Positions 24,807 to 48,452 of a stretch of DNA of 64,000 nucleotides are shown here, one piece after another. A program made the position numbers and the translations under genes. The notes below the pieces were generated by a model. The model searched no databases. It was not told the DNA's origin and was given only the letters and a program-made list of their open reading frames with translations. The first letter of the stretch is position 1, and every line of letters begins with the position of its first letter. Origin of the DNA: Allobosea sp. CRIB-10 (GTDB taxonomy: Bacteria > Pseudomonadota > Alphaproteobacteria > Rhizobiales > Beijerinckiaceae); NCBI RefSeq assembly GCF_900112185.1, contig NZ_FOKP01000027.1, positions 1-64,000 of the forward strand. The letters run 5' to 3'.

Positions 24807-24874
24807 ACTCCAAGCAGTCTTTGCATTGTTCGCCGCGAATTCGTGCTGATAGGTTATGAGCAGGAGGAAAGATC

Positions 24875-26039: not shown

Positions 26040-26050
26040 AGGAGGAAGCC

Positions 26051-26773: not shown

Positions 26774-26775
26774 TC

Positions 26776-27387: not shown

Positions 27388-27390
27388 GCG

Positions 27391-28247: not shown

Positions 28248-29879
28248 CTAATGCCCTGCAGCGTCTGTGGCGGCGATCACCGCCGCCACATCCGTGACGA
28301 CGCAGACATTCTGCAGCGCGTAGTTGACCGAGGCCGTGTGCCATTCGGCGTTCATCGTCGAGCAGGCATCCTCCGGCACCACCATGAAATAGCCCTTGTC
28401 GGCGCCGGTGCGGGCGGTGTGCTCGATCGACATGTTGGTCCAGGCGCCGGTGACGATGACGATGTCGCGGCCAAGCGCCTTCAGCACCGTCTCCAGCCGG
28501 GTGCCCTCCCAGGCGCTCATGCGCTGCTTCTCGACGATATGGTCGCCGTGCTGCGCCTCCAGGCCGGGGACAGGCGCCGCGCCCCAGGTGCCGCGCACCA
28601 GCGCCTTGGCGTCGGCAAGACCCTCGAACAGTGGTGCGTTCATGGTCACGCCGGGCGCGCCGGCCTCGACGATGAACCAGACATGGATCACCGGGATGCC
28701 GCGCGCCCGCGCCGCCAGCGCCAGTCGCGCGCCGTTGGCGATCGCGTTCTGCTGGCGGCAATGCTCCGGCGAGCCCGAGCTGGCGAAGGCGCCGCCCTCC
28801 ATCACCACGTCGTTCTGCATGTCCTGGATGATCAGGGCGCAGCGCGACGGATCGAGCCGGTAGCCGCCGGCGGCCTTCTTCGTGCCGTTTGCCGAGATGG
28901 AGGCGGCGGAATCGACGTCTGACCGCGCTGCGGCTGCGCGGTCACGGCTCGACGTCCCGGCGCCGGCATTGCTCGCTTTCATATAGGGCTCGATGCGCGG
29001 CCCGATTTTGGTCTCGACCGCGTAGAGCGAATGGCTCGCGGTGAGGAAGAGCGTGCGCCAGTCCAGTCCGCCCCAGGTCAGGTTGCCGACGAGCTCGGGC
29101 ACGCGCAGCTTGCCGATCAGCTCGCCCCTGATCGAGTAGACCCAGACGCCGCCGGGGCCGGTGACCCAGACATTGCCCTGCGCATCGCATTTCATCCCGT
29201 CGGGGACGCCGGGCTCGGTCCCGACGATGCCGGTGGCGAAGATGCGGCCGGGACCGAGCCGGCCATCCGGCAGGGTATCGAAGACGCGGATATTGTGCTG
29301 GACGGTGTCGTTGACGAAGAGCCGGTCTTCCGTGGGGCAGAAGCAGAGCCCGTTCGGCTGGTCGAAGAGATAGCGATCGACCAGGAGCTGCGGCGCTCCG
29401 CCTTCCGGCGGAATGCGGTAGACGCCCTGGAAGCCGAGCTGGCGCGGCCGCTCGACGCCGAAGACCGGCATGCGGCCATACCAGGGGTCAGAGAAGTAGA
29501 TCGACCCGTCCGACTTCACGACGACGTCGTTCGGGCTGTTGAGCTCCATGCCCTCGAAATGCGAGGCGATGACCTCGCGCCGGCCGTCCGGCCGCTCGCG
29601 CACCAGCGAAGAGGTCGCGTGCTCGCAGACGATCAGGTCGAGCGCGGCATCATAGGTCATGCCGTTGCATTTGTTCGCCGGCCGCCTGACCTCGCGCACG
29701 CCGTTCTTGTCCCAGCGGCGGCGCACATCGCCCGGCATATCCGAGAACAGGAGATGCTGCTCCTGCGGATGCCAGATCGGACCCTCGCAGAACTCGAAGC
29801 CGGTGCCGAGCTGGCGCACCGGCGCCCAGAGGTCGATCAGGTCGGCGAAGCCGGGCTGGACAGCGACATGCGTGGTCAT
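28248..29879 (-). CDS. SMP-30/gluconolactonase - isochorismatase-family hydrolase fusion
   Basis: A 543-residue two-domain protein. Residues 1-300 form a six-bladed SMP-30/gluconolactonase propeller with metal ligands Glu32 (CEGPIW), Asn117 (NSPND) and Asp227 (VPDGMK). An Ala/Ser/Asp-rich linker (about 302-337) joins an isochorismatase-like domain with Asp353 (IIQDMQND) and Lys451 (EKQRMSAW). The expected catalytic cysteine of TN-x-C-x-E is Ser484 (WTNMSIEHTAR), so a thioester-forming amidase is unlikely and a PhzD-like Asp/Lys/Ser hydrolase is possible. It ends the long minus-strand operon, 14 nt after the MBL-fold gene. Two ring-opening activities in one chain suggest successive hydrolyses. 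Confidence 0.87.
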   Translation of the reverse strand: MTTHVAVQPGFADLIDLWAPVRQLGTGFEFCEGPIWHPQEQHLLFSDMPGDVRRRWDKNGVREVRRPANKCNGMTYDAALDLIVCEHATSSLVRERPDGRREVIASHFEGMELNSPNDVVVKSDGSIYFSDPWYGRMPVFGVERPRQLGFQGVYRIPPEGGAPQLLVDRYLFDQPNGLCFCPTEDRLFVNDTVQHNIRVFDTLPDGRLGPGRIFATGIVGTEPGVPDGMKCDAQGNVWVTGPGGVWVYSIRGELIGKLRVPELVGNLTWGGLDWRTLFLTASHSLYAVETKIGPRIEPYMKASNAGAGTSSRDRAAAARSDVDSAASISANGTKKAAGGYRLDPSRCALIIQDMQNDVVMEGGAFASSGSPEHCRQQNAIANGARLALAARARGIPVIHVWFIVEAGAPGVTMNAPLFEGLADAKALVRGTWGAAPVPGLEAQHGDHIVEKQRMSAWEGTRLETVLKALGRDIVIVTGAWTNMSIEHTARTGADKGYFMVVPEDACSTMNAEWHTASVNYALQNVCVVTDVAAVIAATDAAGH

Positions 29880-29893
29880 GGTGCCGGCCCCCG

Positions 29894-30742
29894 TCAGGCC
29901 GCGAACCAGTTGCGCGCCGGCGGCGACTGCGCGACTGGGCCAGGCACCGCCATGTCCATACGGCCGACGACCTGGCCATGGGCGATCTTGGCCGGCTTGT
30001 CGTGCACCGGCAGCAGGAAGGCGCCGTTGGCGAGCAGCTTCTTGATCGCCGACTTCTCCTCGCGCTTGGAGACGCCGTGGTTGCCGGTGGTGCGCGGCTC
30101 GTTGGCGTGCAGCTCGTGGAAGGGCGACACGATCTGGTCGTTGAAATCGTAGATCACGTCGCCGCAGATGATGGCGCGCCCTTCATTGGTGTCGACATGG
30201 ACGTTCATCGAACCCTCGGTATGGGCGCCGGCGGCTTCCAGGTAGCAGCCGGGGAAGAGCTCGATCATTCCCGAGAGTTCGAGGTCCTCGAAGCGCAGCG
30301 CATCGCGCGTGTGCAAACGGTCGATCAGGTGCTTGATGTCGGGCGCCGGATATTGCGGGTGCATCAGCCCGGACACCGAGTATTCGAGCTCGCGCCGGTT
30401 GACGAGCACCGTCGTGTTCATCGGGAAGAGCTCGTCCTTGCCGGCATGGTCGATATGGAGATGGGTGTGCATGACATAGCGCACATCGCCCAGCCGCACG
30501 CCGTGCTTGGCGAGCTGGTTCTCGATCATGTTCTCGTGGAACTGGAGGCCGCGCATGCCGAGGCTCTCCATGATCTGGTTGTGGCGGTAGCCGGTGTCGA
30601 CCACCACCGGCCAGGGCCCACCAAGGATCAGGAAGCCATAGGTCGGCACGCGGCGGGTGCGCCCGCAATCGCGGCCGAGCACGAGGAAGCTCGATTCCAG
30701 CTCGATGTCGCCGTAGTCGAGAATCTTGATTTCGAGGGCCAT
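29894..30742 (-). CDS. MBL-fold metallo-hydrolase, N-acyl homoserine lactonase-like
   Basis: A 282-residue metallo-beta-lactamase fold protein. HTHLHIDHAGKDELF has the HxHxDH dinuclear zinc site (His94, His96, Asp98, His99); later ligands are His in EAAGAHTEGSM and Asp in IICGDVIYDF. This combination is that of the AHL-lactonase/AiiA-like class. In this catabolic operon it is more likely to open a pathway lactone than to quench quorum signals. It sits 19 nt after the amidohydrolase gene and 14 nt before the SMP-30 fusion. Confidence 0.87.
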   Translation of the reverse strand: MALEIKILDYGDIELESSFLVLGRDCGRTRRVPTYGFLILGGPWPVVVDTGYRHNQIMESLGMRGLQFHENMIENQLAKHGVRLGDVRYVMHTHLHIDHAGKDELFPMNTTVLVNRRELEYSVSGLMHPQYPAPDIKHLIDRLHTRDALRFEDLELSGMIELFPGCYLEAAGAHTEGSMNVHVDTNEGRAIICGDVIYDFNDQIVSPFHELHANEPRTTGNHGVSKREEKSAIKKLLANGAFLLPVHDKPAKIAHGQVVGRMDMAVPGPVAQSPPARNWFAA

Positions 30743-30761
30743 GAACGTCCTCCCCTTTTGA

Positions 30762-31643
30762 TTATTGGCCGAGGCGGTAGACCCGCCTCGCGGTGTCGTT
30801 GAACACGGCTTCCTGCGCCGCTTCCGGCACCGCGGCGCGATGCGCGGCGATCAGCTCGGCGTAGCTCGTCCAGAGCTTCTCGATCGGGAAATTGGAGCCG
30901 AACAGGCAGCGCTCGGGGCCGAACAGGGCAAGCGTCTCGCCGATGATGAAGGCGATTTGCTCGGGATCGTTGCGGCGCAGGAAGGTGCCGAGGCCGGAAA
31001 GCTTGCTGGTGATGTTGGGCTGCGCCGCGAGTAGCGTCATGCCCTCACGCCAAGCGGCGATGCCCTCCGGCGACAGGTCCTCCAGCATGCCGGCGTGCTG
31101 CAGCACGAACGTCACGCTCGGGCAGGCGGCGGCGAGCTCTGCCGCGCCCGCCATCTGGCCGGCGAAGACCTGGAGGTCGAAGCTGAAGCCGTAGTCGGCG
31201 AGCCGCACGACATTGGCGATCAGTCTGGGATCGCGGGCGAGATCGGGCCCGCTGGCGAAGCGGTAGAGCGTGTTCTCGTGCCAGTGCAGTTGCATGCGCA
31301 CGCCGCGCACGCGGGCATTGCGGGCGAGCTGGTCGAGCTGCGGGCGGACATCGTTTGCGAGCATGTCGGCATAGGCGACGATGGCGATCGGGAAGCCCGA
31401 TTCCTCCGAGGCCTGCGAGACGTAAGCCACCTCGTCGAGATAGCGATCAGTCGCCCAATTGGCCTGGACATAGACGGCCTCGGTCACGCCCGCGGGCCGG
31501 CAGTCGCCGAGATATTCGGCGATCGGATAGTCGCGCCGGATCGGCTCGTAGGGGCCGAAGATGCGCGGCTGCATCGGGCCGAGCAGCCAGGGCAGATCGG
31601 CCTGCCGCCAGATGTGGAAATGGGAATCGACGAGACCGGTCAT
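30762..31643 (-). CDS. Amidohydrolase 2 family TIM-barrel hydrolase
   Basis: A 293-residue amidohydrolase-related protein. VDSHFHIW near the N-terminus gives the HxH metal pair (His8, His10). TFVLQHAGML, ITSKLSGLG and CLFGSNFPIEKLW carry the remaining His and Asp typical of the fuconolactonase/2-pyrone-4,6-dicarboxylate lactonase branch. It is likely a lactonase or C-C bond hydrolase acting on the hydroxylated product. Its ATG overlaps the VWA-protein stop by 4 nt. Confidence 0.86.
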   Translation of the reverse strand: MTGLVDSHFHIWRQADLPWLLGPMQPRIFGPYEPIRRDYPIAEYLGDCRPAGVTEAVYVQANWATDRYLDEVAYVSQASEESGFPIAIVAYADMLANDVRPQLDQLARNARVRGVRMQLHWHENTLYRFASGPDLARDPRLIANVVRLADYGFSFDLQVFAGQMAGAAELAAACPSVTFVLQHAGMLEDLSPEGIAAWREGMTLLAAQPNITSKLSGLGTFLRRNDPEQIAFIIGETLALFGPERCLFGSNFPIEKLWTSYAELIAAHRAAVPEAAQEAVFNDTARRVYRLGQ

Positions 31644-32755
31644 GCCGCCAGCGAGCCTCCGAGTGACAGGATGTGCCGGCAGATCCGCGCCGTGCTGCCG
31701 CCGTTCGACAGGCTGGCAAGGCGCGGCGCGATCAGCCGGAGCGCTTCGGTCTCCGGCCGGTAGCCGGGATCGGCCGCCAAGGGCGTCAGCCAGTCGATGC
31801 GGTGGGCGCGCTGCGCCAGCCTCGCGATCGCCGTGACCAGCGCGGAGGGATCGCCGCGTTCGAGGCCATCCGAGAGCACGACGACGACCGCGCCGCGCGC
31901 GTAAGCAGCGAAGCGCGGCACGGCGAGGAAGGCTTGCAGCGCGTCGCCGATACGGGTGCCGCCATCCCAGTCGGCGACGAGTCCGGAGGCTTCCGCAAGC
32001 GCCTGCTCGCGGCGCTTGCGCCGGAGCGCCCGCGTTACGCGGGTGAGGCGGGTGCCGAAGGTGAAGACCTCGACCTGGCGGGTCGCATGGACGATGGTGT
32101 GCGCCAAAGCGAGATTGGCGTCGCTGCGCTGCTTCATCGAGCCGGAGACGTCGATCAGCAGCAGGATCGGCCGTGGCCGCGTCTCGCGCTTGAGCCGCTT
32201 CAGGCTCATCACCTCGCCGTCATGGCGGATCGCATCCTTGAGGCTGCGGGCGAGGTCGACCATCGGCCCGCGTCGCGCAGCCCGGTGGCGATAGCCGCGC
32301 CGGCGGGGCAGGGCGGCCGGCAGCGCCCGGCCGAAGCGGCGCAAGGTCTCGCTGTCGTCAAGCGGCTTAAGCTGGCGGATCGACAGGGCTTCCGCGCCGG
32401 TCGCGGCCTGGCCGGTCTCGTTGGCCTCCTCGCCGATCAGCACCTCGCGCGAACCGGCATCCTCCTGGATGGACATGTCCTCGTCCGGCGCGAAATCATC
32501 GTCGCCGGGCTCGGCCAGGGCGCCGCCGAGGAAGTGCAAGTCGAATAGGGCATCGAAGAGCGCGCGCTGCTCGGGATGGGGCGCAAGCGTCGCAAGCGCG
32601 GCCTTGCGGATGTGCTCGACACTGCGCGGGCCGAGCAGTTCGATCGCCATCAGGAAGCTGGTCGTCTGCTCGGGCGCGGCCGCGATGCCGTGCTCACGCA
32701 GCAGCGCCGGGAAAGCGACGAAAAGCCGGGCTGCGGCAGGAAGTGGCGCGATCAT
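31640..32755 (-). CDS. VWA-domain protein, CoxE-like Mo-hydroxylase maturation factor
   Basis: A 371-residue protein with an N-terminal helical CoxE region, an acidic stretch (PGDDDFAPDEDMSIQED, about 83-99) and a C-terminal von Willebrand A domain with the metal-ion-dependent adhesion site Asp202-x-Ser204-x-Ser206 (LLIDVSGSMKQR). CoxE works with the AAA+ CoxD to mature the molybdenum active site of CO dehydrogenase-like enzymes. Here it follows the MoxR/CoxD homologue with a 4-nt overlap and the hydroxylase subunit genes, in the same order as cox operons. Confidence 0.88.
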   Translation of the reverse strand: MIAPLPAAARLFVAFPALLREHGIAAAPEQTTSFLMAIELLGPRSVEHIRKAALATLAPHPEQRALFDALFDLHFLGGALAEPGDDDFAPDEDMSIQEDAGSREVLIGEEANETGQAATGAEALSIRQLKPLDDSETLRRFGRALPAALPRRRGYRHRAARRGPMVDLARSLKDAIRHDGEVMSLKRLKRETRPRPILLLIDVSGSMKQRSDANLALAHTIVHATRQVEVFTFGTRLTRVTRALRRKRREQALAEASGLVADWDGGTRIGDALQAFLAVPRFAAYARGAVVVVLSDGLERGDPSALVTAIARLAQRAHRIDWLTPLAADPGYRPETEALRLIAPRLASLSNGGSTARICRHILSLGGSLAA

Positions 32756-33636
32756 GCCGCCAGCCCCGGGATGAAGAGCGGCAGGCGAGGGCGCAAATGG
32801 GCGAGGTCCTCCTCGTCCTTGATCGCCGCGCCGAGCGAGCGGCGGAAGGCTTCCGGCCAGGGTGCCCCGCTCTGGGCCAGCGCCGTCGCGGCCTCGGCCC
32901 AGTCTACCGCCTCGGCGACACCCGGCGGCTTGGCCAGCGGTTCCTGCCGCAGCAGGCCGACCGCATGGACGACTGCGCGAGCCGTGCTCTCGGCAACGGC
33001 CGAGGAACGCAGCATGATGATCTGCGCTTCGCGCTCGGGCTCGGGATAGGCGATGTAGTGGTAGACGCAGCGGCGGCGCAGCGCCTCGTGCAATTCGCGG
33101 GTGCGGTTCGAGGTCAGGATCACCACCGGCCGCTCGGGCGCGCGCAAAGTGCCGCGCTCGGGGATCGAGATCGAGAAATCCGAGAGGAATTCGAGCAGGA
33201 AGGCCTCGAATTCATGGTCGGAGCGGTCGATCTCGTCGATCAGCAGCACGACCTGGTCCGGCCGCCGCAGCGCCGTCAGCATCGGCCGCTCGATCAGGAA
33301 ATCGTCGCGGTAGATGTCGAGCTGCTCGCCGTCCTTCGCCTGCCGGATGGCGAGCATCTGGCGTGGATAGTTCCATTCGTAGAGCGCGGCGGCCGCATCG
33401 ATGCCCTCGAAGCATTGCAGGCGGATGAGCTGGCGCCCGAGGATGCCGGCGAGCGCCTTGGCGGCCTCGGTCTTGCCGACGCCGGGCGCGCCCTCCAGCA
33501 GCAACGGCTTGCCAAGCGCGAGCGAGAGGTAGCCGGCCGTCGCGATGCCGTCATCGGCGAGATACATCGCCGCCTGGAGGGCCTCGGCGAGGTCCTCGGG
33601 GCTGGAGATGCCGGCGACGGTCGTCCTCAGCGCCAT
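32752..33636 (-). CDS. MoxR/CoxD family AAA+ ATPase
   Basis: A 294-residue AAA+ ATPase. Walker A GAPGVGKT is at residues 49-56, Walker B VVLLIDEIDRSDHEFEAFLLEFLSDF follows, sensor-1 is ILTSNRTRELHEALRRR. MoxR proteins act as chaperones with a VWA partner, encoded next. I start at ATG 33636 (MALRTTVAGISS); the longer frame to 33708 would overlap the preceding hydroxylase gene. Expected role: ATP-dependent insertion or sulfuration of the hydroxylase cofactor. Confidence 0.9.
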   Translation of the reverse strand: MALRTTVAGISSPEDLAEALQAAMYLADDGIATAGYLSLALGKPLLLEGAPGVGKTEAAKALAGILGRQLIRLQCFEGIDAAAALYEWNYPRQMLAIRQAKDGEQLDIYRDDFLIERPMLTALRRPDQVVLLIDEIDRSDHEFEAFLLEFLSDFSISIPERGTLRAPERPVVILTSNRTRELHEALRRRCVYHYIAYPEPEREAQIIMLRSSAVAESTARAVVHAVGLLRQEPLAKPPGVAEAVDWAEAATALAQSGAPWPEAFRRSLGAAIKDEEDLAHLRPRLPLFIPGLAA

Positions 33637-33640
33637 CGCG

Positions 33641-34684
33641 TCACCGCCAGTTGACCGGGCCGCCGCGGCGCGGACCGGGCTTGGCGCCACCATTGGCCTT
33701 GATCCCACGCAGGATCTTCTCGGGCGTGATCGGCAACTCGTCGACCCGGACGCCGACAGCGTTGTAGACGGCGTTGGCGATCGCCGGCAGCACCGGGTTG
33801 GCGCACATCTCGCCCGGACCCTTGCCGCCGAACGGCCCGTCCGGCGCCGGCCGCTCCAGCACGGTGACGTGATAGGGCGCGATGTCGCCCGGCCCCGGCA
33901 TCAGGTACTCGTTGAAGTCGCGCGGGCCGTGGTCGGGGCTGGGATAGTACGGCTCCGGCGTCTCATAGAGGGCGTGGCTGATGCCCATCCAGGCTCCGCC
34001 GACCAGCTGCTGCTCGACCATGCGCGGGTTGATGACGCGGCCGAGCTCGTAGGCGCTGGTCATCCTGAGCACCTCGACCTCGCCGGTCTCGTCGTCGACG
34101 CTGACATCCGCGACGAGGCAGGCATGGGCGAAGGCGGTGTTCGGGTTCATCTCGCCGGTCTCTGCATCGACGGCCGAAAGCGGGATCAGGAAGATGCCGC
34201 GCCCGGCGATGGTCTTGCCTTGCTTGAACTGCGCCGCCTGCGCCGTCGCCTTGACCGTGATGCTGCGCGAGGGCGCGCCGCGGACATGGATGTTGCCGCG
34301 CCCGTCGGTGACGAGGTCGGCGGCATTGACCTCCAACTCCTCGGCCGCGGCTTCGAGCAGCACGCCGCGGGCCTCGCGGGCGGCGACGATGATGGCGTTG
34401 CCCATGCGGTGGGTGCCGCGCGAGGCGAAGGAGCCCATGTCGTGCGGGCCGGTGTCGCTGTCGGCGGTGTCGACATACACATCCTCGATGGGCACGCCGA
34501 GCGTCTCTGCCGCGATCTGGCGCGAGACCTGCTTCATGCCCTGGCCGAGATCTATCGCCGAGAGCGCGACGGTGAACTTGCCGTCCGGGTTGGAATGGAT
34601 CAGCGCCTGGCTCGGATCGCCGCCCAGGTTCATGCCGATCGGGTAGTTGACCGAGGCCATGCCGCGGCCTTCGTGACGGGCCAT
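33641..34684 (-). CDS. Molybdenum hydroxylase large subunit, C-terminal half (split gene)
   Basis: A 347-residue protein equal to the second half of xanthine-dehydrogenase/CoxL-type subunits. It carries GDPSQALIHSNPDGKFTV, the cofactor-binding AIDLGQGMKQVSRQIAAETLG, and the C-terminal FGGKGPGEMCANPVLPAIANAVYNAVG with the catalytic Glu of the Mo site. The ATG at 34684 comes 1 nt after the stop of the N-terminal-half gene, with GAGGAGG inside that gene's end. The clean ribosome binding site argues for a deliberate split, as in the NdhL/NdhM subunits of Eubacterium nicotinate dehydrogenase, and not a sequencing error. Confidence 0.88.
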   Translation of the reverse strand: MARHEGRGMASVNYPIGMNLGGDPSQALIHSNPDGKFTVALSAIDLGQGMKQVSRQIAAETLGVPIEDVYVDTADSDTGPHDMGSFASRGTHRMGNAIIVAAREARGVLLEAAAEELEVNAADLVTDGRGNIHVRGAPSRSITVKATAQAAQFKQGKTIAGRGIFLIPLSAVDAETGEMNPNTAFAHACLVADVSVDDETGEVEVLRMTSAYELGRVINPRMVEQQLVGGAWMGISHALYETPEPYYPSPDHGPRDFNEYLMPGPGDIAPYHVTVLERPAPDGPFGGKGPGEMCANPVLPAIANAVYNAVGVRVDELPITPEKILRGIKANGGAKPGPRRGGPVNWR

Positions 34685-34685
34685 C

Positions 34686-36452
34686 TCAGCGCCTCCTCGT
34701 GCCGAAGACCGACGAGAACCGCACCGCGCCATGCTGGGTCTGCGCGGGTGCGGCCGGCGGTGGCGAGGCAGGCAGCGGGCTCGCCGGTTGATGGACGGGC
34801 GCTGGCGAATACGAACCGGGCGGCTGATAGGGCGGCGGCGCAGGCTGATAAGCCGGAGGTGGCGGCGCTGCCGGCCGCTGCGGTTCGTAGCGCGGCACCT
34901 GCGTCGGCGCGGCGCGGCCGTCGCGGGCGCCTTCCATCACCGGCTGCTTGCTCGGCGCAATCCTTGTCGTGCCGGCCGGCAGCACCTGCGTCACCGGCCC
35001 ATTGCGCGAGTCGGGCCGGCCGATCTGGCCGCGGGCGTCGAGCTGGGTCGCCGGGATCTGCGAGCGCTCGCCGGCGCCGCCGCCGAGCAGCGAGGAGGCC
35101 CGCTTGGCCTGCTCGGAGAGCGGCCAGTTCGCCTTCTCGGCCGCGACCTGCACGCATTCGACCAGCGCCGTGTTCTTGGCGGCGCGCCGATGCGGTTTCA
35201 TGTCCCCGTCGCGATAAGCGTTGAGGATCCGGAACTCCATCGGGTCCATGTTCGCGGCCTCGGCGAGGCGGTCCATCTGGACCTCGAGCGCGAAGTCGAC
35301 CGCGGTGACGCCGAAGCCGCGCATCGCGGTCGAGGGGCAGCGATTGGTGTAGGAGACGTAGATGTCGGAGGCGACGTTGGGGATCCAGTACGGCCCCGGC
35401 ACATGCGCCGTGCACTTGATCGCGGCGTAGCTGGACAGGCGCGTATAGGCGCCGGCGTCGAAATAGCTGCGGATATGGCGGGCAACAATCCGCCCGTCGC
35501 GCATCAATCCGTCCTTGATGTAGATGCGCTCTGCCCCGCGCGGCGAGCCGTAGAGCATCTCCTCCTCGCGATCGAGCACGAAGCGCACCGGGCGGCCGGT
35601 CAGCATGGCGCCGAGCACGGCGAGCGGCTCGGTCAGCGAGTCGACCTTGCCGCCGAAGCCGCCGCCGACCGTGCCGCCGATGAAATGCAGCTGGTTCGAC
35701 TCGACGTCGACGATCTTGGCGGTCGTGCCCAGCGCGAAGAACAGGCCCTGGGCGCAGGAGTGCACGACATACCGGCCGTTCTGTTCGGGCGCCGCGATCG
35801 AGCCGTTGGTCTCGGTCGGCGCATGCTCGATCGGCGACATCTGGTAACGATGTTCCATCACGATGTCGGCGCCGGCGAAGCCGCGCTCGACATCGCCGAA
35901 GCGCAGCTTCTGATGGTCGAAGCGCTCGTGATATTCGAAGTAGTTGCCGGGATAGGTCTCGTTGACCACCGGCGCGCCGGCTTTCAGCGTCTCCTCGACA
36001 TCGAACACCGCCGGCAGCGGGTCATAGTCGATACGCACCAGCTTGCGGGCCGCCTGCGCCTGCGCCTCGCTGTCGGCGAGGATCGCGACGACCGGCTCGC
36101 CCTTGTAAGCGACCTTGTTCACCGCCAGCGACGGCTCGTCGTCCTTGCCGAAATTGATCAGGCTGAGCAGCGTGTTCTTGTTCACGGGCACATCGGCGCC
36201 GCGCAGCACGCGCTTGACGCCCGGCGCGCGCTCGGCCGCCGAGGTATCGATCGCGCGGATACGGGCATGGTGATGCGGGCTGCGCACCACCTTGAGATGC
36301 AGCATGCCGTCGAAGGCGTGATCGTCGAAGAAGCGGGTCCGCGCCGTGACATGGCCCGGCATGTCCTGGCGCTGCACGCCCTTGCCGACGACGTTGAGAT
36401 TGTCGTCGCGCTCGTCGGCGAAGAGGTCCTTGCGCATCTCCATCGTTGTCAT
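34686..36452 (-). CDS. Molybdenum hydroxylase large subunit, N-terminal half with proline-rich tail
   Basis: A 588-residue protein. Residues 1 to about 445 correspond to the N-terminal Mo-subunit domain of xanthine dehydrogenase/CoxL enzymes: VVGKGVQRQDMPGHVTARTRF, VRSPHHHARI, FIGGTVGGGFGGK (cofactor binding) and STAMRGFGVTAVDFALE. The AMRGFG loop is of the heterocycle-hydroxylase kind, not the AYRCSFR loop of form I CO dehydrogenase. About residues 446-588 are a low-complexity tail rich in Pro, Ala, Gln and Tyr (for example PPPPAYQPAPPPYQPPG), which normal subunits lack. Start is ATG 36452, 11 nt after the 2Fe-2S gene. Confidence 0.88.
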   Translation of the reverse strand: MTTMEMRKDLFADERDDNLNVVGKGVQRQDMPGHVTARTRFFDDHAFDGMLHLKVVRSPHHHARIRAIDTSAAERAPGVKRVLRGADVPVNKNTLLSLINFGKDDEPSLAVNKVAYKGEPVVAILADSEAQAQAARKLVRIDYDPLPAVFDVEETLKAGAPVVNETYPGNYFEYHERFDHQKLRFGDVERGFAGADIVMEHRYQMSPIEHAPTETNGSIAAPEQNGRYVVHSCAQGLFFALGTTAKIVDVESNQLHFIGGTVGGGFGGKVDSLTEPLAVLGAMLTGRPVRFVLDREEEMLYGSPRGAERIYIKDGLMRDGRIVARHIRSYFDAGAYTRLSSYAAIKCTAHVPGPYWIPNVASDIYVSYTNRCPSTAMRGFGVTAVDFALEVQMDRLAEAANMDPMEFRILNAYRDGDMKPHRRAAKNTALVECVQVAAEKANWPLSEQAKRASSLLGGGAGERSQIPATQLDARGQIGRPDSRNGPVTQVLPAGTTRIAPSKQPVMEGARDGRAAPTQVPRYEPQRPAAPPPPAYQPAPPPYQPPGSYSPAPVHQPASPLPASPPPAAPAQTQHGAVRFSSVFGTRRR

Positions 36453-36463
36453 GGCGACCTCCC

Positions 36464-36946
36464 TCAGGCTCGGCGCGCGCCGGGCGCGTTCGCCGCGGCG
36501 AGGATGGCGGCGATGATCGGCTCGTAGCCGGTGCAGCGGCAGATATTGCCGCTGATCGCCTCGACGACCTCCTCGCGGCTTGGCTGCGGGTTCTTCGCCA
36601 GCAGCGCCCGCGCCGCGGTCAGCATGCCCGGCGTGCAGAAGCCGCATTGGGCGGCGAAATGTTCCATGAAGGCGTCCTGCAGCGGGTGCAGGTTCGGCCC
36701 ATCGGCCATGCCGGATGCGGTCTCGATCTGGCGCCCCTCACAGGACACTGCGAGCGTCAGGCAGGCGAGCTGCGGCTCGCCGTCGACGAGCACGGTGCAG
36801 ACGCCGCAGGTGCCCTGGCCGCAGCCATATTTCGGGCCGAAATCGCCGAGCCCGCGCCGGAGCGTGTCGAGCAGGTTGCTCGCCGGGTCGACGAAGGTGG
36901 CACGGTCGCTGCCGTTGAGGCGGAACTGGAGCGGGAGCTTGGCCAT
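36464..36946 (-). CDS. Molybdenum hydroxylase 2Fe-2S subunit (CoxS type)
   Basis: A 160-residue electron-transfer subunit. The plant-ferredoxin-type cluster is bound by Cys42, Cys47, Cys50 and Cys62 (GCGQGTCGVCT, QLACL), the proximal cluster by Cys101, Cys104, Cys136 and Cys138 (CGFCTPG, NICRCTGY). Length and spacing are normal. I start at ATG 36946 (MAKLPLQFRLNG); the longer frame is not supported. It lies between the FAD-subunit gene and the Mo-subunit halves. Confidence 0.95.
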   Translation of the reverse strand: MAKLPLQFRLNGSDRATFVDPASNLLDTLRRGLGDFGPKYGCGQGTCGVCTVLVDGEPQLACLTLAVSCEGRQIETASGMADGPNLHPLQDAFMEHFAAQCGFCTPGMLTAARALLAKNPQPSREEVVEAISGNICRCTGYEPIIAAILAAANAPGARRA

Positions 36947-36956
36947 CGGCGCCTCC

Positions 36957-37778: not shown

Positions 37779-37779
37779 G

Positions 37780-38232: not shown

Positions 38233-38234
38233 GG

Positions 38235-38672: not shown

Positions 38673-38683
38673 CTGTCAGCGCC

Positions 38684-41581: not shown

Positions 41582-41608
41582 GTCAGCATCCTCCCGCCCG
41601 TGCCCGGG

Positions 41609-42484
41609 TCATTTCGTCTTGCCGGCCTTGCGTGCCGGCTTCTCGGTCTTCGGTTCGCGGCCGATCTGCTTGAAGGCGCGGGTCTGGTCGCGGATCGCGA
41701 CCTCGACCGGCAGGCGCTCCATCGAGGACGCACCGTAGAATCCGTGGCAGTGCGTCGTGTTCTTCATGATGAAGTCGGCGTCGGCGGGCTCGGCGACCGG
41801 CCCGCCATGGACGAGGATGATCGCGTCCTTCTTCACGGCGAGCGCGGCCTTGGCCCAGCTCTCGACCAGCGCCGGACAGTCCTTCAGCTTGAGCGCCGTC
41901 TCGGCGCCGATCGAGCCGCCGGTGGTTAGCCCGAGATGGCAGACGATGATGTCGGCGCCGGCCTTGGCCATCGCCCGTGCATCGTCCTCGCAGAAGACGT
42001 AAGGCGTGGTCAGCAGGCCCTTGGCGTTGGCCAGCGCGATCATCTCGACCTCGAGCCCATAGCCCATGCCGGTCTCTTCGAGATTGGCGCGGAAGGTGCC
42101 GTCGATCAGACCGACGGTCGGGAAGTTCTGCACGCCGGAGAAGCCGAGGCGCCTGACATCGTCGAGGAAGACATCCATGCGCCGGAACGGGTCGGTGCCA
42201 CAGATGCCGGCGATCACCGGCGTGTTCCGGACCACCGGCAGCACCTCGGCCGCCATCTCCATGACGATCGCATTGGCGTCGCCATAGGGCATCAGCCCGG
42301 AGAGCGAGCCGCGGCCGGCCATGCGGTAGCGGCCGGAATTGTAGATGACGATCAGGTCGATGCCGCCGGCCTCTTCGCATTTGGCCGAGAGGCCGGTGCC
42401 GGCGCCGCCGCCGATAATCGGCTCACCCTTGGCGATCATCGCCCGGAAGCGCTTCAGCAGGGTCTTCTTGTCGAAAGCCGTCAT
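41609..42484 (-). CDS. Phosphoenolpyruvate hydrolase family / TIM-barrel protein linked to Tm-1-like domains
   Basis: A 291-residue TIM-barrel protein. [67 protein letters not shown] and [15 protein letters not shown] are the hallmarks of the family annotated as PEP-hydrolase or TIM-barrel signal-transduction proteins. In fungi and plants this domain is fused to a Tm-1-like (UPF0261) domain; here that domain is encoded immediately upstream, with a 4-nt overlap, on the LivF fusion. The two probably form one functional unit. Catalytic activity is unclear. Confidence 0.85.
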
Positions 42485-44724
42485 GGCCTGCCTCCGCCCA
42501 CGCGTTCGCGACGCCGGCCGGCATGCAGCGTGCGGAACTGCTGCACCAGGGCGGACGCGAAGGCGGGATCGTTGATGTGGTGCGGCAGGCGGATCAGCTG
42601 CCGGTTCGGCCCGGTGCGCACCGTCTGTTCCAGCGCCTGGAACAGGGCGGCGTCGGCGGCGGGATCGTGGAAGGCCTGGCCTGGCGCATCCAGCGCGGAG
42701 ACGCCGAGCTCGGGGATCAGGAAGCGGACCGGCCCTTCCATCTGGTTCAGCCGCTCGCCGATCCAGCGGCCCATCCGGGCATTCTCCTCCGCCGTGGTCC
42801 GCATCAGCGTGATCTGCGGGTTGTGTGGATAGAGCAGCCGGCCGCGATAGCGCTCCGGCACCGTCTCGGGCGCCAAGAAATTGACCATGTCGAGCGCACC
42901 GACCGAGCCGACATAGGGGACGCGCGTGCGGATGATCGCCCCGAAGCGATCCTCGGTCGCCGGCAGGAAGCCACCCATCAGCAGGTCGCAGATCTCGGTG
43001 GTCGATACGTCGATCACCGCGCCGACGAGGCCGGACTCGACCAGCTTCTCCATCGAGCGCCCGCCGGTGCCGGTGGCGTGGAAGACGAGCGGCTCCCAGT
43101 CCTCGGCGAGGAGCCTGGAGACCTGCTGCACGCAAGGCGTGGTCACGCCGAACATGGTGAGCCCGACCAACGGCTTCTCCGGCGCGCGGCGGCGCGAGGG
43201 CTCGGGTTTGAGCTCAACGAGACGAGCCTTGGCCATGGCGGCGATGGCGTGTGCGCCATTGCCGAGCACGAGGCGCGAGACGCGGTTGACGCCCTGCACA
43301 TCGGTGACGGCATGCAGCATGGCGATGTCGGTGGCGCCGACATAGGCGCTGACATCGCCGGAGGCCATGGTCGAGATCATCAGCTTGGGCAGGCCGACCG
43401 GCAGCGCCTGCATCGCCGGCGTCACCATCGCGGTCGCGCCCGAGCCGCCGGCCGAGATGATGCCGAGCAGGCCCTGCTGGCGCGGCAGCCAGGCCTTGAA
43501 GGCCTCGGTCATCGCCGCCACTGCCGTGCCGCGATCGCCCGAGGAGATGCCGGCCGAACCTTTCGGCGAGGCGAGCGCGATCTCCTGCGGAGTGACGTCG
43601 CCGCCGGCGCTGCGGCCCGAGGTCGAGAGATCGACGAGGCGGGTGCGCAGGCCCTCGGCCCGGATCAGGTCGCGGATGAAGCGCAGCTCCTCGCCCTTGG
43701 TGTCGAGCGTGCCGGCGATGACGACATAAGGCTCGCTCCTCGCCGCGGCCGCGAGCGGCCGGATCGCGCCGACCGGCTGGCCATCGCGCGTCGCCAATGT
43801 TGGGCGCGAGATGGTGCGGGCTTGCGCCTCGATCCGCGCCGCGGGCACCGCTTGCGACCAGCGGTTCGGGATGACCGGGTTCGAGACATAGACGCGAATC
43901 GGCCCGGTTGGGGCCGGAGCGGCAGGCCCGGAGTTTCCGGCGGCCGGGGTCATGTCCGACGCCGCATCGGTCTCGTCATGGCCGTGGCGGCCGACGCCGA
44001 GCAGGCGCTGCTGCAGGTCGCGGTCGCCGGCGAGCGCCGCCGAGGCGATGATGCGGTTGATCCGGCCGTTGACCATGATCGCGACGGGATCGGACATCTG
44101 CGTGGCGACGCCGATGTTCTGCTCGATCACCAGGATCGCGACGTCGCCCTGCTCGGCGAGGCGGACCAGCATCTCCTCGACATGGGCGACGATGACCGGC
44201 GCCAGCCCCTCGGTCGGCTCGTCCATGATCAGCAGGCGCGGGTTGAGCAGCAGCGCCCGGCTGATCGCCAGCATCTGCTGCTCGCCGCCGGAGAGCTGGG
44301 CGCCGCCATTGTTGCGGCGCTCGGCCAGGCGCGGGAAGACCTCGTAGATGCGCTCGGGCGTCCAGGGCCCGCGCTTGCCGCGCTGCATCAGCCGCAGATG
44401 CTCGTCGACGGTCAGCGAGCGCCAGAGCCGGCGACCCTGCGGGACATAGCCGATGCCGAGCCGCGCCACCTCGGCCGGCGAGTGGCCGGCGATCTCCTCG
44501 CCGAAGAAGCGGATCGAGCCGGACGCGATCGGCACCAGCCCCATGATCGCCTTGCACATGGTCGTCTTGCCCATGCCGTTGCGACCGACGACGGAGAGGA
44601 CGCCGTGCTGCAGCGTGAGATCGACGCCCTGCACGGCGTGCGAGCGACCATAGAAGACGTTGAGGCCGGCGATCTGCAGGATCGGAACGCCGGCGGGGGG
44701 CGGAGCTTTCAGGCGCTCAGCCAT
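42481..44724 (-). CDS. LivF ABC ATPase fused to Tm-1-like (UPF0261) ATP-binding domain
   Basis: A 747-residue fusion. Residues about 14-245 are a branched-chain-amino-acid-type ATPase: Walker [10 protein letters not shown] (47-55), signature QLSGGEQQ (143-150), Walker [14 protein letters not shown] (164-176), with the LivF-typical [10 protein letters not shown] linker (about 246-330) leads to a Tm-1-like/UPF0261 domain: [18 protein letters not shown] (336-353), [31 protein letters not shown], and [11 protein letters not shown], followed by [15 protein letters not shown]. Tm-1 of tomato binds a viral replicase, but the bacterial role is unknown. I start at ATG 44724, overlapping livG by 8 nt. 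A nucleotide-binding domain tied to an importer ATPase suggests substrate processing or sensing at the transporter. Confidence 0.88.
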
Positions 44725-45505
44725 GGCCGCCCCCGAGATAGAGCTCCTGCACCTCCGGATCGGATTCGATCTCGTCCGGCCGCCCCTCTTTGAAGATGCG
44801 GCCATTGTGCATCATCGTCACGCTCTCGACGACGCGCAGCGCCACGTCCATGTCGTGCTCGATGATGATGTAGCCGATATGGCCCGGCAGCGAGGTCAGG
44901 ATCTGGACCAGGTCGGCCCGCTCGGTCGGCGACAGGCCCGCCGCCGGCTCGTCGAACAGGATGAAGCGCGGCGCGCCCGACAGAGCGAGCGCGATCTCGA
45001 GTTGGCGCTGCTGGCCATAGGCCAGCTCGCCGACCAGCCGATCCTTGACGGCGGTGAGGTGGACGGCGTCGACTAGGCTCTCGGCGGCATGCTGGAGCGT
45101 GTCGTCGCGGCGCGGCCGCCGCAGCGAGAAGCGGTTCCGCGAGACCCCGCGGCAGGCGAGGTAGACGTTGTCGATCACCGTCAGCCCGGTGAAGAGCGAG
45201 GAGATCTGATAGGTGCGCCTGAGGCCGCGCCGGATGCGCTCATGCGGCGGAAAGGCCGTCACATCCTCGCCGAAGAAGCGGATGACGCCGGAGCTCGGCG
45301 AAAAATCGCCGGTGACGCAGTTGAACAGCGTGGTCTTGCCGGCACCGTTCGAGCCGAGCACGGCACGCCGCTCGCCGGGGCGGACCGAGAGCGTGACGTC
45401 GGACAGGGCCGCGAGCGCCCCGAACAGGCGCGAGACGCCGCGCAGTTCGAGCGCATTGCCCGAGCTGCCCGTATTCAGCCGCTCCAGGCTCGGCACGGCG
45501 CTCAT
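44717..45505 (-). CDS. ABC transporter ATP-binding protein, LivG type
   Basis: A 262-residue ATPase of the branched-chain amino-acid/urea/amide family. Walker A GSNGAGKTT is at residues 51-59. RRTYQISSLFTGLTVIDNVYLA is the LivG-specific Q-loop region, LAYGQQRQLEIALAL the signature, and FILFDEPAAGLSPTER Walker B. It pairs with the LivF domain of the following fusion. The ATG overlaps the livM stop by 4 nt. Confidence 0.94.
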   Translation of the reverse strand: MSAVPSLERLNTGSSGNALELRGVSRLFGALAALSDVTLSVRPGERRAVLGSNGAGKTTLFNCVTGDFSPSSGVIRFFGEDVTAFPPHERIRRGLRRTYQISSLFTGLTVIDNVYLACRGVSRNRFSLRRPRRDDTLQHAAESLVDAVHLTAVKDRLVGELAYGQQRQLEIALALSGAPRFILFDEPAAGLSPTERADLVQILTSLPGHIGYIIIEHDMDVALRVVESVTMMHNGRIFKEGRPDEIESDPEVQELYLGGGHG

Positions 45506-46590
45506 GGCGCGCCTCCGCCGGTCCGCATTTGTGCATCCTGCGCCTCGCGGCTCTTGCGATAGCGCTCGCGCAGGCGCTGCCAGATGCCGATCAGCCCATC
45601 CGGCGAGAACAGCACGATGATGAGGAAGCCGAAGCCGATCAGCAATTGATAGCGCTTGCCTTCGAGCCCGACCCAGTCGAGCAGATCGAGGGCGAATGTG
45701 CGCAGCAGGACATAGACCAGCGCGCCGATGAAGGGGCCGATCGGGCGGCTGAGGCCGCCGACGACAGCGATGATCAGCATGTCGACGACAGGGCCGACGC
45801 CGCCCGTCCCCGGCGAGACCTGGCGCTGGTACCAGACCAGAAGCACGCCGGCGAAGGCGGCGATCACCGCAGCGAAGGCATAGGCGGCGATGCGATGGGC
45901 GACGACATCGAAGCCGAGCGCCGCCATGCGCCGCGGATTATCGCGCGTGCCCTGCAGGGCAAGGCCGAAAGGCGCCCGCGAGACATAGACGACCACGCCA
46001 TACGCCAGCGCAGCGCAGCCCAGCGTCAGGTAATAGAACGGCACGGTGCTGCCCCAGTCGATGCCGAGGAAGACCGGCGGCATCACGCCGTTGAAGCCGC
46101 TGAAGCCGTTGAAGATCGTGTAGTTCTGCAGCGTCAGGTAATAGAAGGCCGAGCCGATCGCGAGGGTGATCATGATCGTGTAGATGCCCTCGGTCCGGAC
46201 CGAAAGCGCGCCGCCCAGCGTGCCGAACAAGGTGGCGAGCAGGATCGCGACCGGCACCGCCGTCCACCACGGCCATTTCAGGCTGATCTGGGTAATCGCG
46301 CTCTCGCCGAAAATGGCGACGAGATAGGCGGCGAAGGCGGCGACGGTCATCTGGATCAGGCTGACGATGCCGCCATAGCCGGCGAGGAACATCAGGCTGA
46401 GCGCGATCATGCCGAGGATCATCGCATAGGCGAGGATCTGGACGAGCCAGAACGGGCTCGCGATCAGCGGCATCACCAGGAGCAGCGCCGCGACGATCCA
46501 GAAGCCCGTGCCCTGCCGGGCGATCACCTCGGCGAGCCCTTCGCGGGGGCGCGGCGTCGCGATCGCGAGGCGTGGTTCGGCCAGCGCCAT
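45502..46590 (-). CDS. ABC transporter permease, LivM type
   Basis: A 362-residue polytopic membrane protein with about nine hydrophobic segments and the LivM core VRTEGIYTIMITLAIGSAFYYL, GTRDNPRRMAALGFDVVAHR and GGLSRPIGPFIGALVYVLL. It forms the translocation pore with LivH, encoded 1 nt upstream. The N-terminal 25 residues before the first helix are cytoplasmic. Confidence 0.94.
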   Translation of the reverse strand: MALAEPRLAIATPRPREGLAEVIARQGTGFWIVAALLLVMPLIASPFWLVQILAYAMILGMIALSLMFLAGYGGIVSLIQMTVAAFAAYLVAIFGESAITQISLKWPWWTAVPVAILLATLFGTLGGALSVRTEGIYTIMITLAIGSAFYYLTLQNYTIFNGFSGFNGVMPPVFLGIDWGSTVPFYYLTLGCAALAYGVVVYVSRAPFGLALQGTRDNPRRMAALGFDVVAHRIAAYAFAAVIAAFAGVLLVWYQRQVSPGTGGVGPVVDMLIIAVVGGLSRPIGPFIGALVYVLLRTFALDLLDWVGLEGKRYQLLIGFGFLIIVLFSPDGLIGIWQRLRERYRKSREAQDAQMRTGGGAP

Positions 46591-46591
46591 C

Positions 46592-47605
46592 TCAGCGCCT
46601 CACCGCGGCCAAGCCTTGCGGCCGGATCGCCAGCACCACGACCATGATGACGAAGGTCAGCATCACCGCATAGGTCGGCATGTAGACCGAGCCGAACTGC
46701 TCGGCGAGGCCGACGATGAGCGCCCCCATCGCCGCGCCCGGGATCGAGCCCATGCCGCCGACGATGACGACGACCAGCGACGACAGCAGGATCTTGGTGT
46801 CCTCGCCTGGCTGAAGCGACTGGAAGGTGCCGCCGACGACGCCGGCGAGCCCCGCGAGCCCGGCGCCGAAGGCGAAGACCATGATGAAGACGAGCTGCAC
46901 GCGCACGCCGGTGGCGGAGAGCATGTCGCGATCGTCGACGCCGGCGCGCACCAGCATGCCGATGCGGGTGCGGTTGAGCGCCAGCCACATCGCGACACCC
47001 AGGATGATCGCGCCGATCAGGATGGCGATGCGGACCAGCGGGTACATCATCATCACCGCCTCGCCATTGCTGCGCAGTGCGACGATGAAGGGCAGCTGCA
47101 CTGGCCCGGAGAGCCAGTCCGGCGTCGTCACCTGGAAGGTATCGCCGCCATAGCCCCAGAGCAGCAGGTCGGCGACGATGATCGAGAGCCCGATTGTAAC
47201 CAGCGTCTGCCGCAGGTCCTGGCCCTCCATCCAGCGGAAGAGCAGCACCTGCATCAGGATACCGGCCAGGGCGACGACCACGAAGGCGCCGATCAGCGCG
47301 GCGAACCAGGAGCCCGTCAGGTTGCCGATGCTGTAGCCGACATAGCCGCCAAACAGATAGAGCGAACCGTGCGCCAGGTTGACGTTGCGCATCAGGCCGA
47401 AGATCAGCGTGAAGCCGCTGGCGACCAGGAAATAGAGCCCGCCGAGCGTGATGCCATTGAACAGCGCGCTCAGGAAGACGCGCTTGCGGCCGAAGGTCAG
47501 CTCCATCCACGGCGTCCAGACCGCAAAGATCAGGAAGAGGAGCAGGGCGACCGCGATCAGGATCACCAGCGACCAGATCGGGCGGCGGCCGATGAAATCA
47601 GACAT
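46592..47605 (-). CDS. ABC transporter permease, LivH type
   Basis: A 337-residue membrane permease. NGITLGGLYFLVASGFTLIFGLMRNVNLAHGSLYLFGGY is the LivH first-helix and NxAHG signature; RTRIGMLVRAGVDDRDMLSATGV is the EAA-like loop; VVVIVGGMGSIPGAAMGALIVG closes the core. I start at ATG 47605 (MSDFIGRR), which overlaps the AraC gene's stop by 8 nt, so the regulator and transporter are translationally coupled. Confidence 0.94.
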   Translation of the reverse strand: MSDFIGRRPIWSLVILIAVALLLFLIFAVWTPWMELTFGRKRVFLSALFNGITLGGLYFLVASGFTLIFGLMRNVNLAHGSLYLFGGYVGYSIGNLTGSWFAALIGAFVVVALAGILMQVLLFRWMEGQDLRQTLVTIGLSIIVADLLLWGYGGDTFQVTTPDWLSGPVQLPFIVALRSNGEAVMMMYPLVRIAILIGAIILGVAMWLALNRTRIGMLVRAGVDDRDMLSATGVRVQLVFIMVFAFGAGLAGLAGVVGGTFQSLQPGEDTKILLSSLVVVIVGGMGSIPGAAMGALIVGLAEQFGSVYMPTYAVMLTFVIMVVVLAIRPQGLAAVRR

Positions 47606-48452
47606 GGCTCGCCTGCGATGGCGGGAGGCCGACGGTGCGGAGCACCCGCCGATAGTCGCGCGGCGCCATGCCGACATGGGCGCTGAAAAAGCGGGTGAAC
47701 ACGCTCTGGCCGGAGAAGCCGAGGCGGTGGCTGATGCTGGTCACCGGATCGCTCGACAACACGATCCGCTCAAGCGCCGCGTCGATCCGGGCGGTATTGG
47801 CGAAGATGTTTGGCGTGACGCCGACCTGTTGCCGGAAGAGCTTGAAGAAATGGGCGCGCGACAGGCCTGCCTCGCGCGCGATCCGGGCGAGCGCGCCTTC
47901 GGACGAGGTATGCTGTTCCAGCAATCGGCAGGCCCGCAGCACCCGCCGATCGAGGGCGCCTGCCGAGGTGTCGTGTAGCAGCGAAGAGACGAGCTCGGGT
48001 CCGATCGGCTCGCTGGAAGCCTGCGCCAGCGCCATCAGCACCGGGGCGAGATTGAGCTCGCGGTGCTGCGACAGCAGCATCTCGACCGCCTGGTCGCGCC
48101 AGGCGGCGAGCTCGCGGGTTATGACCAGTTCGGATGACGGGAAGACCAGCGAACCGGCCGACGGCATGGCCTGCGCCGCCAGCCATTCCGGCTTGAGATA
48201 GATGACGAGGAAGAGCCCGAAGGCGCCCGGCTGCTCCGGCTGGAAATTATGCGGTTCCCAGGGGTTGATCGCCACACCCATGAACGGATCGACCCGGACC
48301 ATGTGGTCATTGACGGTCACGAGGCCCCGCGAGCCCTCGAGAAAGAAGATCAGATGCGCTTCGCGATGCGCATGCACCACCATCGGGCGATCGAGATTGT
48401 AGATCGACACCCGTCCGAAGGGACCGTGGCAGACCGCGACTGCGCGACTCAT
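47598..48452 (-). CDS. AraC family transcriptional regulator, first gene of the long operon
   Basis: A 284-residue regulator. The N-terminal cupin-like ligand domain includes HAHREAHLIFFLEGSRGLVTVNDHMVRV and INPWEPHNFQP. The C-terminal double helix-turn-helix has ALARIAREAGLSRAHFFKLFRQQVGVTPNIF and ITSISHRLGFSGQSVFTRFFSAHVG-like sequence. It leads a gapless 18-gene operon that it presumably controls, probably in response to the imported compound. A 166-bp spacer with a hairpin separates it from the receptor gene. Confidence 0.9.
   Translation of the reverse strand: MSRAVAVCHGPFGRVSIYNLDRPMVVHAHREAHLIFFLEGSRGLVTVNDHMVRVDPFMGVAINPWEPHNFQPEQPGAFGLFLVIYLKPEWLAAQAMPSAGSLVFPSSELVITRELAAWRDQAVEMLLSQHRELNLAPVLMALAQASSEPIGPELVSSLLHDTSAGALDRRVLRACRLLEQHTSSEGALARIAREAGLSRAHFFKLFRQQVGVTPNIFANTARIDAALERIVLSSDPVTSISHRLGFSGQSVFTRFFSAHVGMAPRDYRRVLRTVGLPPSQASHV

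Follow-up and report, generated by a model that had tools for sequence, protein, structure and literature searches.

Why should a catabolic molybdenum (Mo) hydroxylase, a flotillin and a Liv-type importer be encoded together in one closely packed operon? We address this question for a 64,000-nucleotide stretch of DNA from Allobosea sp. CRIB-10 (Rhizobiales; contig NZ_FOKP01000027.1, positions 1 to 64,000), hereafter the window, which is part of a 6.33-Mb genome (G000:C54). Eighteen minus-strand genes run from 48452 down to 28248, with junctions from an 8-nucleotide overlap to a gap of 27 nucleotides, the widest, which separates the PF09370 gene from the flotillin gene. An earlier, sequence-only reading had described this array, AraC regulator first, and had named the Liv importer, Mo hydroxylase, SRPBCC, flotillin and hydrolase families; the gene coordinates bear out the layout, and Pfam confirms the families. 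It missed the LivK gene upstream, the identity of the PF09370 protein, and the C-terminal tail of LN, the N-terminal half of a Mo subunit that is split into LN and LC. The observation was right and understated. New here is that the tail is conserved, ends in an RRR peptide and accompanies the flotillin.

We surveyed the tail in 141 loci, near-copies between collections included. Wherever a locus carries the flotillin and a readable LN (108/108), LN has a tail of 80–192 residues ending in RRR; the end peptide has the form RF...RRR in 107 of these 108 and the strict form RFSS-V/I-x-G-x-RRR in 87, with RFSSVFTRRR, RFISG-S/T-RRR, RFASISGLRRR and, once, RHGSRLAGTRRR among the variants. All 13 flotillin-less loci with at least 9.6 kb upstream have 14–20 residues past the core and no motif. 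The rest of the 141 are contig-cut loci, ten tailed and two tail-less, and eight loci without a readable LN. Four later loci agree with the tail–flotillin rule (two with, two without), giving 145 loci and 132 distinct LC sequences: 101 with flotillin and tail, 17 with neither (2 of them contig-cut), 7 with a tail and no flotillin in hand, and a further 6 and 1 with LN unread. In one of the tabulations, LC lies within 1.7–5.1 kb of the contig start in all tailed loci that lack a flotillin.

It is the protein, not the DNA, that is conserved: in 79 loci the same peptide, RFSSVFGTRRR, is spelled by 51 distinct DNA strings. The preceding linker has no fixed length; 26% of its residues are proline and 17% alanine. 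No other protein ending in an RFSS-type peptide was found in the 3.28 Mb of surveyed loci, where a loose pattern matched 128 times (118 LN proteins, that of genome G376, and nine unlike them). The end peptide was not found in print either, in literature searches that covered the families of the operon and of which none was aimed at the peptide itself. Most simply, we infer, the tail would be a docking peptide for the flotillin or for SR2, the second of the operon's two SRPBCC proteins (SR1 and SR2).

How often this association arose bears on its weight. On an LC tree built by a quick method (97 rows), the distribution of tailed and tail-less proteins needs one change, and repeated independent gains of the tail are unneeded. 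The co-occurrence therefore goes back to a single joint gain of the tail, the flotillin, SR2, the importer and further genes, which then stayed together; it speaks for a link between them.

The Pfam scores of the flotillin lie above cut-off (66.3 bits for Band_7 and 120.4 bits for Flot), and it scores 38.9 bits against the 700 of the FloT equivalog. The long periodic region of the window protein shows 35% identity at a lag of 44 residues, and 10 of its 12 best lags are divisible by 11. Flotillins of the long operon measure 870–1166 residues (107 loci, median 966), and those of a second, widespread operon class, which we call type ii, 558–734 residues; residues 329–685 of the window protein have no match in the type-ii flotillin of a Variovorax plasmid. 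On that plasmid LivH, LivM, LivK, LivG, LivF::UPF0261, PF09370, flotillin and SR1 are followed by an SR2 that is joined to a zinc-type dehydrogenase in one protein; genes for FAH-family, alpha/beta-hydrolase and amidohydrolase proteins lie nearby (Pfam), and there is no split Mo hydroxylase. Four genomes (G088, G522, G625 and G663) share this layout. A class-wide search found the flotillin in 38 of 372 genomes at E <= 1e-75, 19 of the 38 being outside the context survey; among 12 further contexts, mostly those nearest to the window flotillin and not a random draw, 10 were type ii and 2 (G099, G361) were flotillins without the other genes. The type-ii loci now number 15 (L241, G088, G522, G625, G663, G395, G402, G139, G165, G339, G182, G417, G188, G332 and G244). 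The SR2::dehydrogenase is one open frame of 484–511 residues in 14 of them; in the other, G332, the contig breaks off within SR2. Three of the 15 have no PF09370, the view of G244 does not extend to LivH, and G188 has a rearranged gene order. The FAH, alpha/beta-hydrolase and amidohydrolase neighbors were tested with Pfam in Variovorax only and read by eye at the other type-ii loci. In G182 a non-split Mo hydroxylase of only 33% identity, together with an iron-sulfur (FeS) gene and, judged by eye, one for an FAD protein, occupies 13347–16936 on the minus strand, convergent to the type-ii flotillin operon.

The SR2::dehydrogenase fusion points to a contact between SR2 and the enzyme. We propose that the long operon encodes a catabolic Mo enzyme docked on a membrane platform of flotillin and SRPBCC proteins beside an importer, a reading that we hold to be an even call; that docking would run through the LN tail is, judged by itself, also about equally probable and improbable. 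A compound would enter through the Liv-type importer, which has a Tm-1-like domain on its ATPase; the flotillin, probably cage-like, and the two SRPBCC proteins would gather the enzyme on the inner side of the membrane, by analogy with CoxG; and the flexible LN tail would dock its conserved basic end on the flotillin or SR2 and so hold the enzyme there. CoxD and CoxE would mature the Mo center, and the amidohydrolase, followed by the metallo-beta-lactamase-fold (MBL) and SMP-30/isochorismatase hydrolases, would open the oxidized product. The platform (importer, Tm-1-like domain, flotillin and SRPBCC pair) would stay constant and the enzyme be swapped, through SR2 fusion in type ii versus the tail in the long operon. 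According to PMC4240915, CoxG, of the SRPBCC superfamily, is the proposed recruiter of CO dehydrogenase to the membrane, the particulate enzyme being absent in the mutant; human flotillin forms a membrane cage of 44 subunits in 22 pairs, with a width of 32 nm and a height of 22 nm (PMC11260169). The longer flotillin wall could make room for a larger Mo enzyme, but tail and flotillin lengths are uncorrelated. Taken further, the dedicated extra-long flotillin might be a membrane reaction chamber, part of a modular platform with the importer and its Tm-1-like domain, the TIM-barrel partner and two SRPBCC carriers, and loaded with a swappable redox enzyme by docking peptide (Mo hydroxylase) or SR2 fusion (zinc dehydrogenase), in which the imported compound is oxidized at the membrane before release; we put this forward tentatively and regard it as rather doubtful.

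Several points weigh against the docking proposal. The motif rule was framed after the sequences had been seen, its strict form covers only 87 of the 108 ends, and the RHGSRLAGTRRR end lacks even the RF. Because the tree needs one change, the co-occurrence of tail and flotillin amounts to a single event and not to repeated evidence, and because SR2, importer, UPF0261 and SMP-30 protein arrived together with them, it does not single out a docking partner. The length of the tail shows no correlation with that of the flotillin (Spearman 0.02, 106 loci), and an AlphaFold model of LN was uninformative (mean predicted local distance difference test 36.2). No NCBIfam cut-off is reached by any catalytic protein scanned, leaving no substrate signal beyond family names, and coxG mutants still grow on CO, more slowly (PMC4240915).

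The same facts can be read with an ordinary catabolic pathway, in which the flotillin is a general organizer of importer microdomains and the LN tail a direct membrane anchor or electron-transfer contact. The end peptide is basic (RRR in 108/108) and has hydrophobic residues, CO dehydrogenase, according to PMC4240915, is probably recruited to the membrane so that it can reduce quinone, and co-occurrence cannot tell the partner when several genes arrive together. Yet short-core enzymes of the same family are tail-less, and a long flexible tail would better suit a tether to a protein platform; we consider this alternative somewhat unlikely. As for the partner in the docking proposal, G522, G625 and G663 have a short Mo core without a tail despite a type-ii flotillin elsewhere in the genome; these three genomes, the divided operon of G517 (below) and the type-ii class narrow the candidates.

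How far the arrangement is kept was examined in two sets of relatives. A scan of named genomes found at least 496 relatives; the analysis used the best 80, a set that leans to close ones, and 65 of the 80 loci have at least 9.5 kb upstream and at least 6.5 kb downstream of LC. Neighboring genes were called at E <= 1e-8 and 33% identity. The genera represented among the best 80 of the at least 496 include Bosea, Xanthobacter, Aquabacter, Rhabdaerophilum, Phreatobacter, Bradyrhizobium and Chelatococcus, and the window LC has its nearest named records in Bosea. The set of 14 genes that begins with LivF::UPF0261 and closes with SMP-30/isochorismatase is complete in 64 of the 65 loci, and their order is kept in 65 of 65; the sole incomplete locus (L080) has no amidohydrolase match. 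The genes are thus not scattered in relatives, as the neighborhood check suggested by the sequence-only reading could have found, and because the arrangement is conserved in relatives it is not due to chance.

The second set, whole-genome and plasmid loci with enough flank, numbers 51 with the window included. Flotillin is present in 37, and all 18 genes in 29 of these. The other eight are Shinella and G219 without MBL, G661 and G573 without PF09370, G693 without both, G482 without AraC, G517 without eight genes at the locus, and G376, whose LN was unmatched by tblastn; its frame is nevertheless there, as an open reading frame ending RFSSVFGSRRR directly upstream of LC. A linked LivK-type binding-protein copy lies near most long relatives too. 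The 14 loci without flotillin consist of a short core of FAD, FeS, LN and LC genes, with CoxD, CoxE and amidohydrolase in 11 and SR1 in 7; SR2, LivHMG, LivF::UPF0261, MBL and SMP-30 had no match in place in any of the 14 at the thresholds given. The core of the pathway is the Mo hydroxylase, usually then the amidohydrolase. Of 297 genomes of the order, 49 have an LC relative at E <= 1e-100, as do 8 of 385 genomes of the class at E <= 1e-70 (window's genome included in both), and the operon reaches other alphaproteobacterial orders (Yoonia, G191, G208, G219, G986). Relatives thus show three architectures: the long operon, the flotillin-less short Mo core, and the importer/UPF0261/flotillin/SRPBCC set without the Mo enzyme. 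The operon is built of separable modules, and the idea of a single conserved unit holds for gene content and order but not for indivisibility, since the Mo core occurs without flotillin and the platform with another oxidoreductase.

In G517 the modules lie apart: a genome search placed the operon in two pieces about 180 kb from each other. The piece with the tailed Mo enzyme keeps flotillin, SR1 and SR2, and AraC, LivHMG, LivF::UPF0261 and PF09370 are in the other, so that loss of the importer could be rejected in favor of its relocation. A search confined to these two pieces did not turn up the MBL and SMP-30 genes. Further observations concern single loci. In Yoonia (L130) the PF09370 and FeS matches each fall in two overlapping, unannotated frames, and in Sinorhizobium BG8 (L131) the LN match also comes in two overlapping frames, frameshifts that are real or come from assembly. 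A Salinigranum rubrum plasmid (L128) carries a haloarchaeal short form with FAD, FeS, split LN and LC, then a PF04199 cyclase-family and an SRPBCC protein, with Amidohydro_2 upstream. An EthD-domain protein (G051, L148:32-343) and a YCII-domain protein (Nonomuraea, L129:19882-20157) occur in short cores, beside LC/CoxD or the amidohydrolase; they are possible small isomerases of the same pathway.

The enzyme common to the long and short forms has the complete domain set of the xanthine dehydrogenase family (FAD_binding_5, Fer2/Fer2_2, hammerhead, MoCoBD_1 and MoCoBD_2 by Pfam). The best solved relatives are the large and medium Mo subunits of nicotinate dehydrogenase, 3hrd_A for LN (1.7e-55) and 3hrd_B for LC (2e-47), and the split falls at the same domain border, although sequence similarity is remote. 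The split large Mo subunit seen in the sequence-only reading is therefore genuine and matches that of NdhL/NdhM. It is also old, because LC is 57% identical in an archaeal (Salinigranum) and 61% in an actinobacterial (Nonomuraea) plasmid record. A sequencing error or frameshift as its origin was rejected, the halves being separate intact frames in several families and in the archaeal and actinobacterial records. Glu292 of LC and its glycines are invariant in 9 aligned LC sequences; they lie in the GxGE region, which we take to be the active-site glutamate motif. The CO dehydrogenase large-subunit model TIGR02416 gives LN 150.7 and LC 112.5 bits against a cut-off of 991. The CoxD and CoxE look-alikes (31640–33636) come nearest to the NCBIfam MadB ATPase and MadC VWA models, below cut-off (258.9/475 and 69.6/600 bits).

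The split itself suggests another role for the tail, that of clamping LN to LC or guiding co-translational assembly, unrelated to the flotillin. The tail stands at the end of LN that faces the split, and in the window LC begins 1 nucleotide further on. But the same split is tail-less in 15 informative short loci and in NdhL (425 residues), and the tail is kept where the halves have moved apart, by a 311-residue frame in G517 and by 0.6–1.6 kb in seven other genomes of its family (f18). We judge this role quite improbable. The 311-residue frame looks, by eye, like a drug/metabolite transporter.

What the docked enzyme would act on can be approached through the hydrolases. The pathway could not be identified from family names, an attempt dropped when no NCBIfam cut-off was reached; scores stay below the equivalog cut-offs of L-fuconolactonase (96.6/400 bits), 4-pyridoxolactonase (61/325) and acyl-homoserine lactone lactonase (54.6/375). 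The best solved relatives of the SMP-30 domain are putative gluconolactonases. In the amidohydrolase, asparagine (FGSNFP/WGSNFP) occupies what is presumably the position of the usual metal-ligand aspartate in 113 of 126 distinct sequences, the other 13 having no pattern match. Of 27 representatives, 9 have an Fe-dependent alcohol dehydrogenase gene directly ahead of AraC; the one protein scanned is nearest to 4-hydroxybutyrate dehydrogenase (371.8 bits, below the cut-off of 500). The long operon of Yoonia also has an aldehyde dehydrogenase nearby. Hydrolases and alcohol dehydrogenase lean toward a cyclic compound that would be oxidized to a lactone or lactam and hydrolytically opened.

A more specific proposal is an N-heterocycle, e.g., a nicotinate-like acid, hydroxylated by the Mo enzyme and then cleaved at an amide by the isochorismatase-type domain. 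The kinship of LN and LC with the nicotinate dehydrogenase subunits, split alike, would fit, as would the distant relationship of that domain to RutB and biuret hydrolase, below cut-offs. Against this, the similarity is remote, the hydrolases are mostly lactonase-like and the nearest relative of the alcohol dehydrogenase is as given above; in addition, what we take to be the usual cysteine position is serine in all 108 distinct SMP-30/isochorismatase proteins (101 by pattern, 7 read directly), which departs from a cysteine-dependent amidohydrolase. Such a substrate seems to us unlikely.

Table 1. Features of the operon and its upstream neighbor in the window, from high to low coordinates
Feature	Coordinates	Strand	Basis or remark
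LivK-type periplasmic substrate-binding protein (Peripla_BP_6)	48619..49869	-	Pfam; 166 nucleotides upstream of AraC gene
AraC-family regulator	47598..48452	-	Pfam
LivH-type permease (BPD_transp_2)	46592..47605	-	Pfam
LivM-type permease (BPD_transp_2)	45502..46590	-	Pfam
LivG-type ATPase (ABC_tran)	44717..45505	-	Pfam
LivF-type ATPase (ABC_tran) fused to UPF0261 (Tm-1-like) N and C domains	42481..44724	-	Pfam
PF09370 PEP_hydrolase-like TIM barrel	41609..42484	-	Pfam
Flotillin, 965 residues: Band_7, long helical repeat, Flot domain	38684..41581	-	Pfam
Flotillin periodic region, about residues 190-790, 11/44-residue periodicity	39212..41014	-	
SRPBCC protein 1 (SR1; Polyketide_cyc2)	38235..38672	-	Pfam
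SRPBCC protein 2 (SR2; Polyketide_cyc2)	37780..38232	-	Pfam
FAD subunit of Mo hydroxylase (FAD_binding_5)	36957..37778	-	Pfam
2x[2Fe-2S] subunit (Fer2/Fer2_2)	36464..36946	-	Pfam
LN, N-terminal half of Mo subunit (hammerhead, MoCoBD_1), NdhL-like, tailed	34686..36452	-	Pfam, PDB match
LN tail past core, 145 residues, Pro/Ala-rich	34689..35123	-	
Conserved LN C-terminal peptide RFSSVFGTRRR	34689..34721	-	
LC, C-terminal half of Mo subunit (MoCoBD_2), NdhM-like	33641..34684	-	Pfam, PDB match
CoxD/MoxR-type AAA ATPase	32752..33636	-	Pfam
CoxE-type VWA protein (VWA_CoxE)	31640..32755	-	Pfam
Amidohydro_2 protein (fuconolactonase-like)	30762..31643	-	Pfam, NCBIfam score
Metallo-beta-lactamase-fold (Lactamase_B, MBL) lactonase-like hydrolase	29894..30742	-	Pfam, NCBIfam score
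SMP-30 domain (SGL) fused to isochorismatase-type domain, Ser at usual Cys position	28248..29879	-	Pfam

Within the window, terminator-like sites between 28000 and 47990 on both strands number 7, with 5.6 (standard deviation 2.0) expected, i.e., no excess, and a search of 27000–51500 for structured RNAs gave none above threshold. Convergent with the operon end, on the plus strand at 23889–28227, lies a likely protocatechuate (pca) set. Its last protein (27391–28227) scores as a 3-oxoadipate:acetyl-CoA acetyltransferase (485 bits, cut-off 350), implying a beta-ketoadipate route that ends without a thiolase; for the genes at 24944–27387, the pca names were read from sequence only.

The usual view of bacterial flotillins is that of general membrane organizers without defined clients. 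In the present case one lineage of flotillins goes with a named enzyme, an importer and a conserved end peptide in many genomes, which makes a client-docking hypothesis directly testable, and two operon classes with one platform and different redox enzymes suggest a reusable design. The operon also gives a setting for UPF0261 and PF09370, relatives of plant Tm-1 whose bacterial role is not established. In the open-access literature we found no paper joining flotillin, UPF0261 and xanthine dehydrogenase, or flotillin and molybdenum hydroxylase, an absence that proves little.

Among known systems, the enzyme most resembles the nicotinate dehydrogenase NdhFSLM (PDB 3hrd, presumably from Eubacterium barkeri), a four-part Mo hydroxylase whose large subunit is split at the same place; that enzyme oxidizes nicotinate and has selenium at its Mo site. 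It differs in its large-subunit chain of 425 residues, which has no tail, and to our knowledge no flotillin, SRPBCC, CoxD/E or Liv importer is encoded beside it. The aerobic CO dehydrogenase cluster coxBCMSLDEFGHIK (PMC4240915) shares with the operon a Mo hydroxylase, a CoxD-type ATPase, a CoxE-type VWA protein and a protein of the SRPBCC superfamily, in the cox cluster CoxG. It differs in that the operon's Mo subunits score far below the CO dehydrogenase cut-off. We know of no split in the cox large subunit, and of no flotillin, importer or hydrolases in that cluster. The blcABC gamma-butyrolactone operon is similar in its MBL lactonase-like protein and in the Fe alcohol dehydrogenase near some long operons, but has no known counterpart of the Mo hydroxylase, flotillin or importer, and here no family cut-off is reached. 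UPF0261 and its PF09370 TIM-barrel partner stand side by side, as here, and are reported to co-evolve (PMC5028733); in contrast, UPF0261 of the present and type-ii operons is fused to the importer ATPase. No Pfam family of encapsulin or microcompartment shell proteins occurs among the 20 proteins scanned. The cargo peptides of encapsulins and bacterial microcompartments resemble the LN tail in being short, conserved and terminal, on a flexible linker, and present only with the scaffold gene. Flotillin/SPFH cages, finally, share with the operon flotillin the Band_7 and Flot domains and the long periodic region (human cage, PMC11260169). The operon flotillin differs from them in being tied to the operon of one enzyme and in its length of 870–1166 residues.

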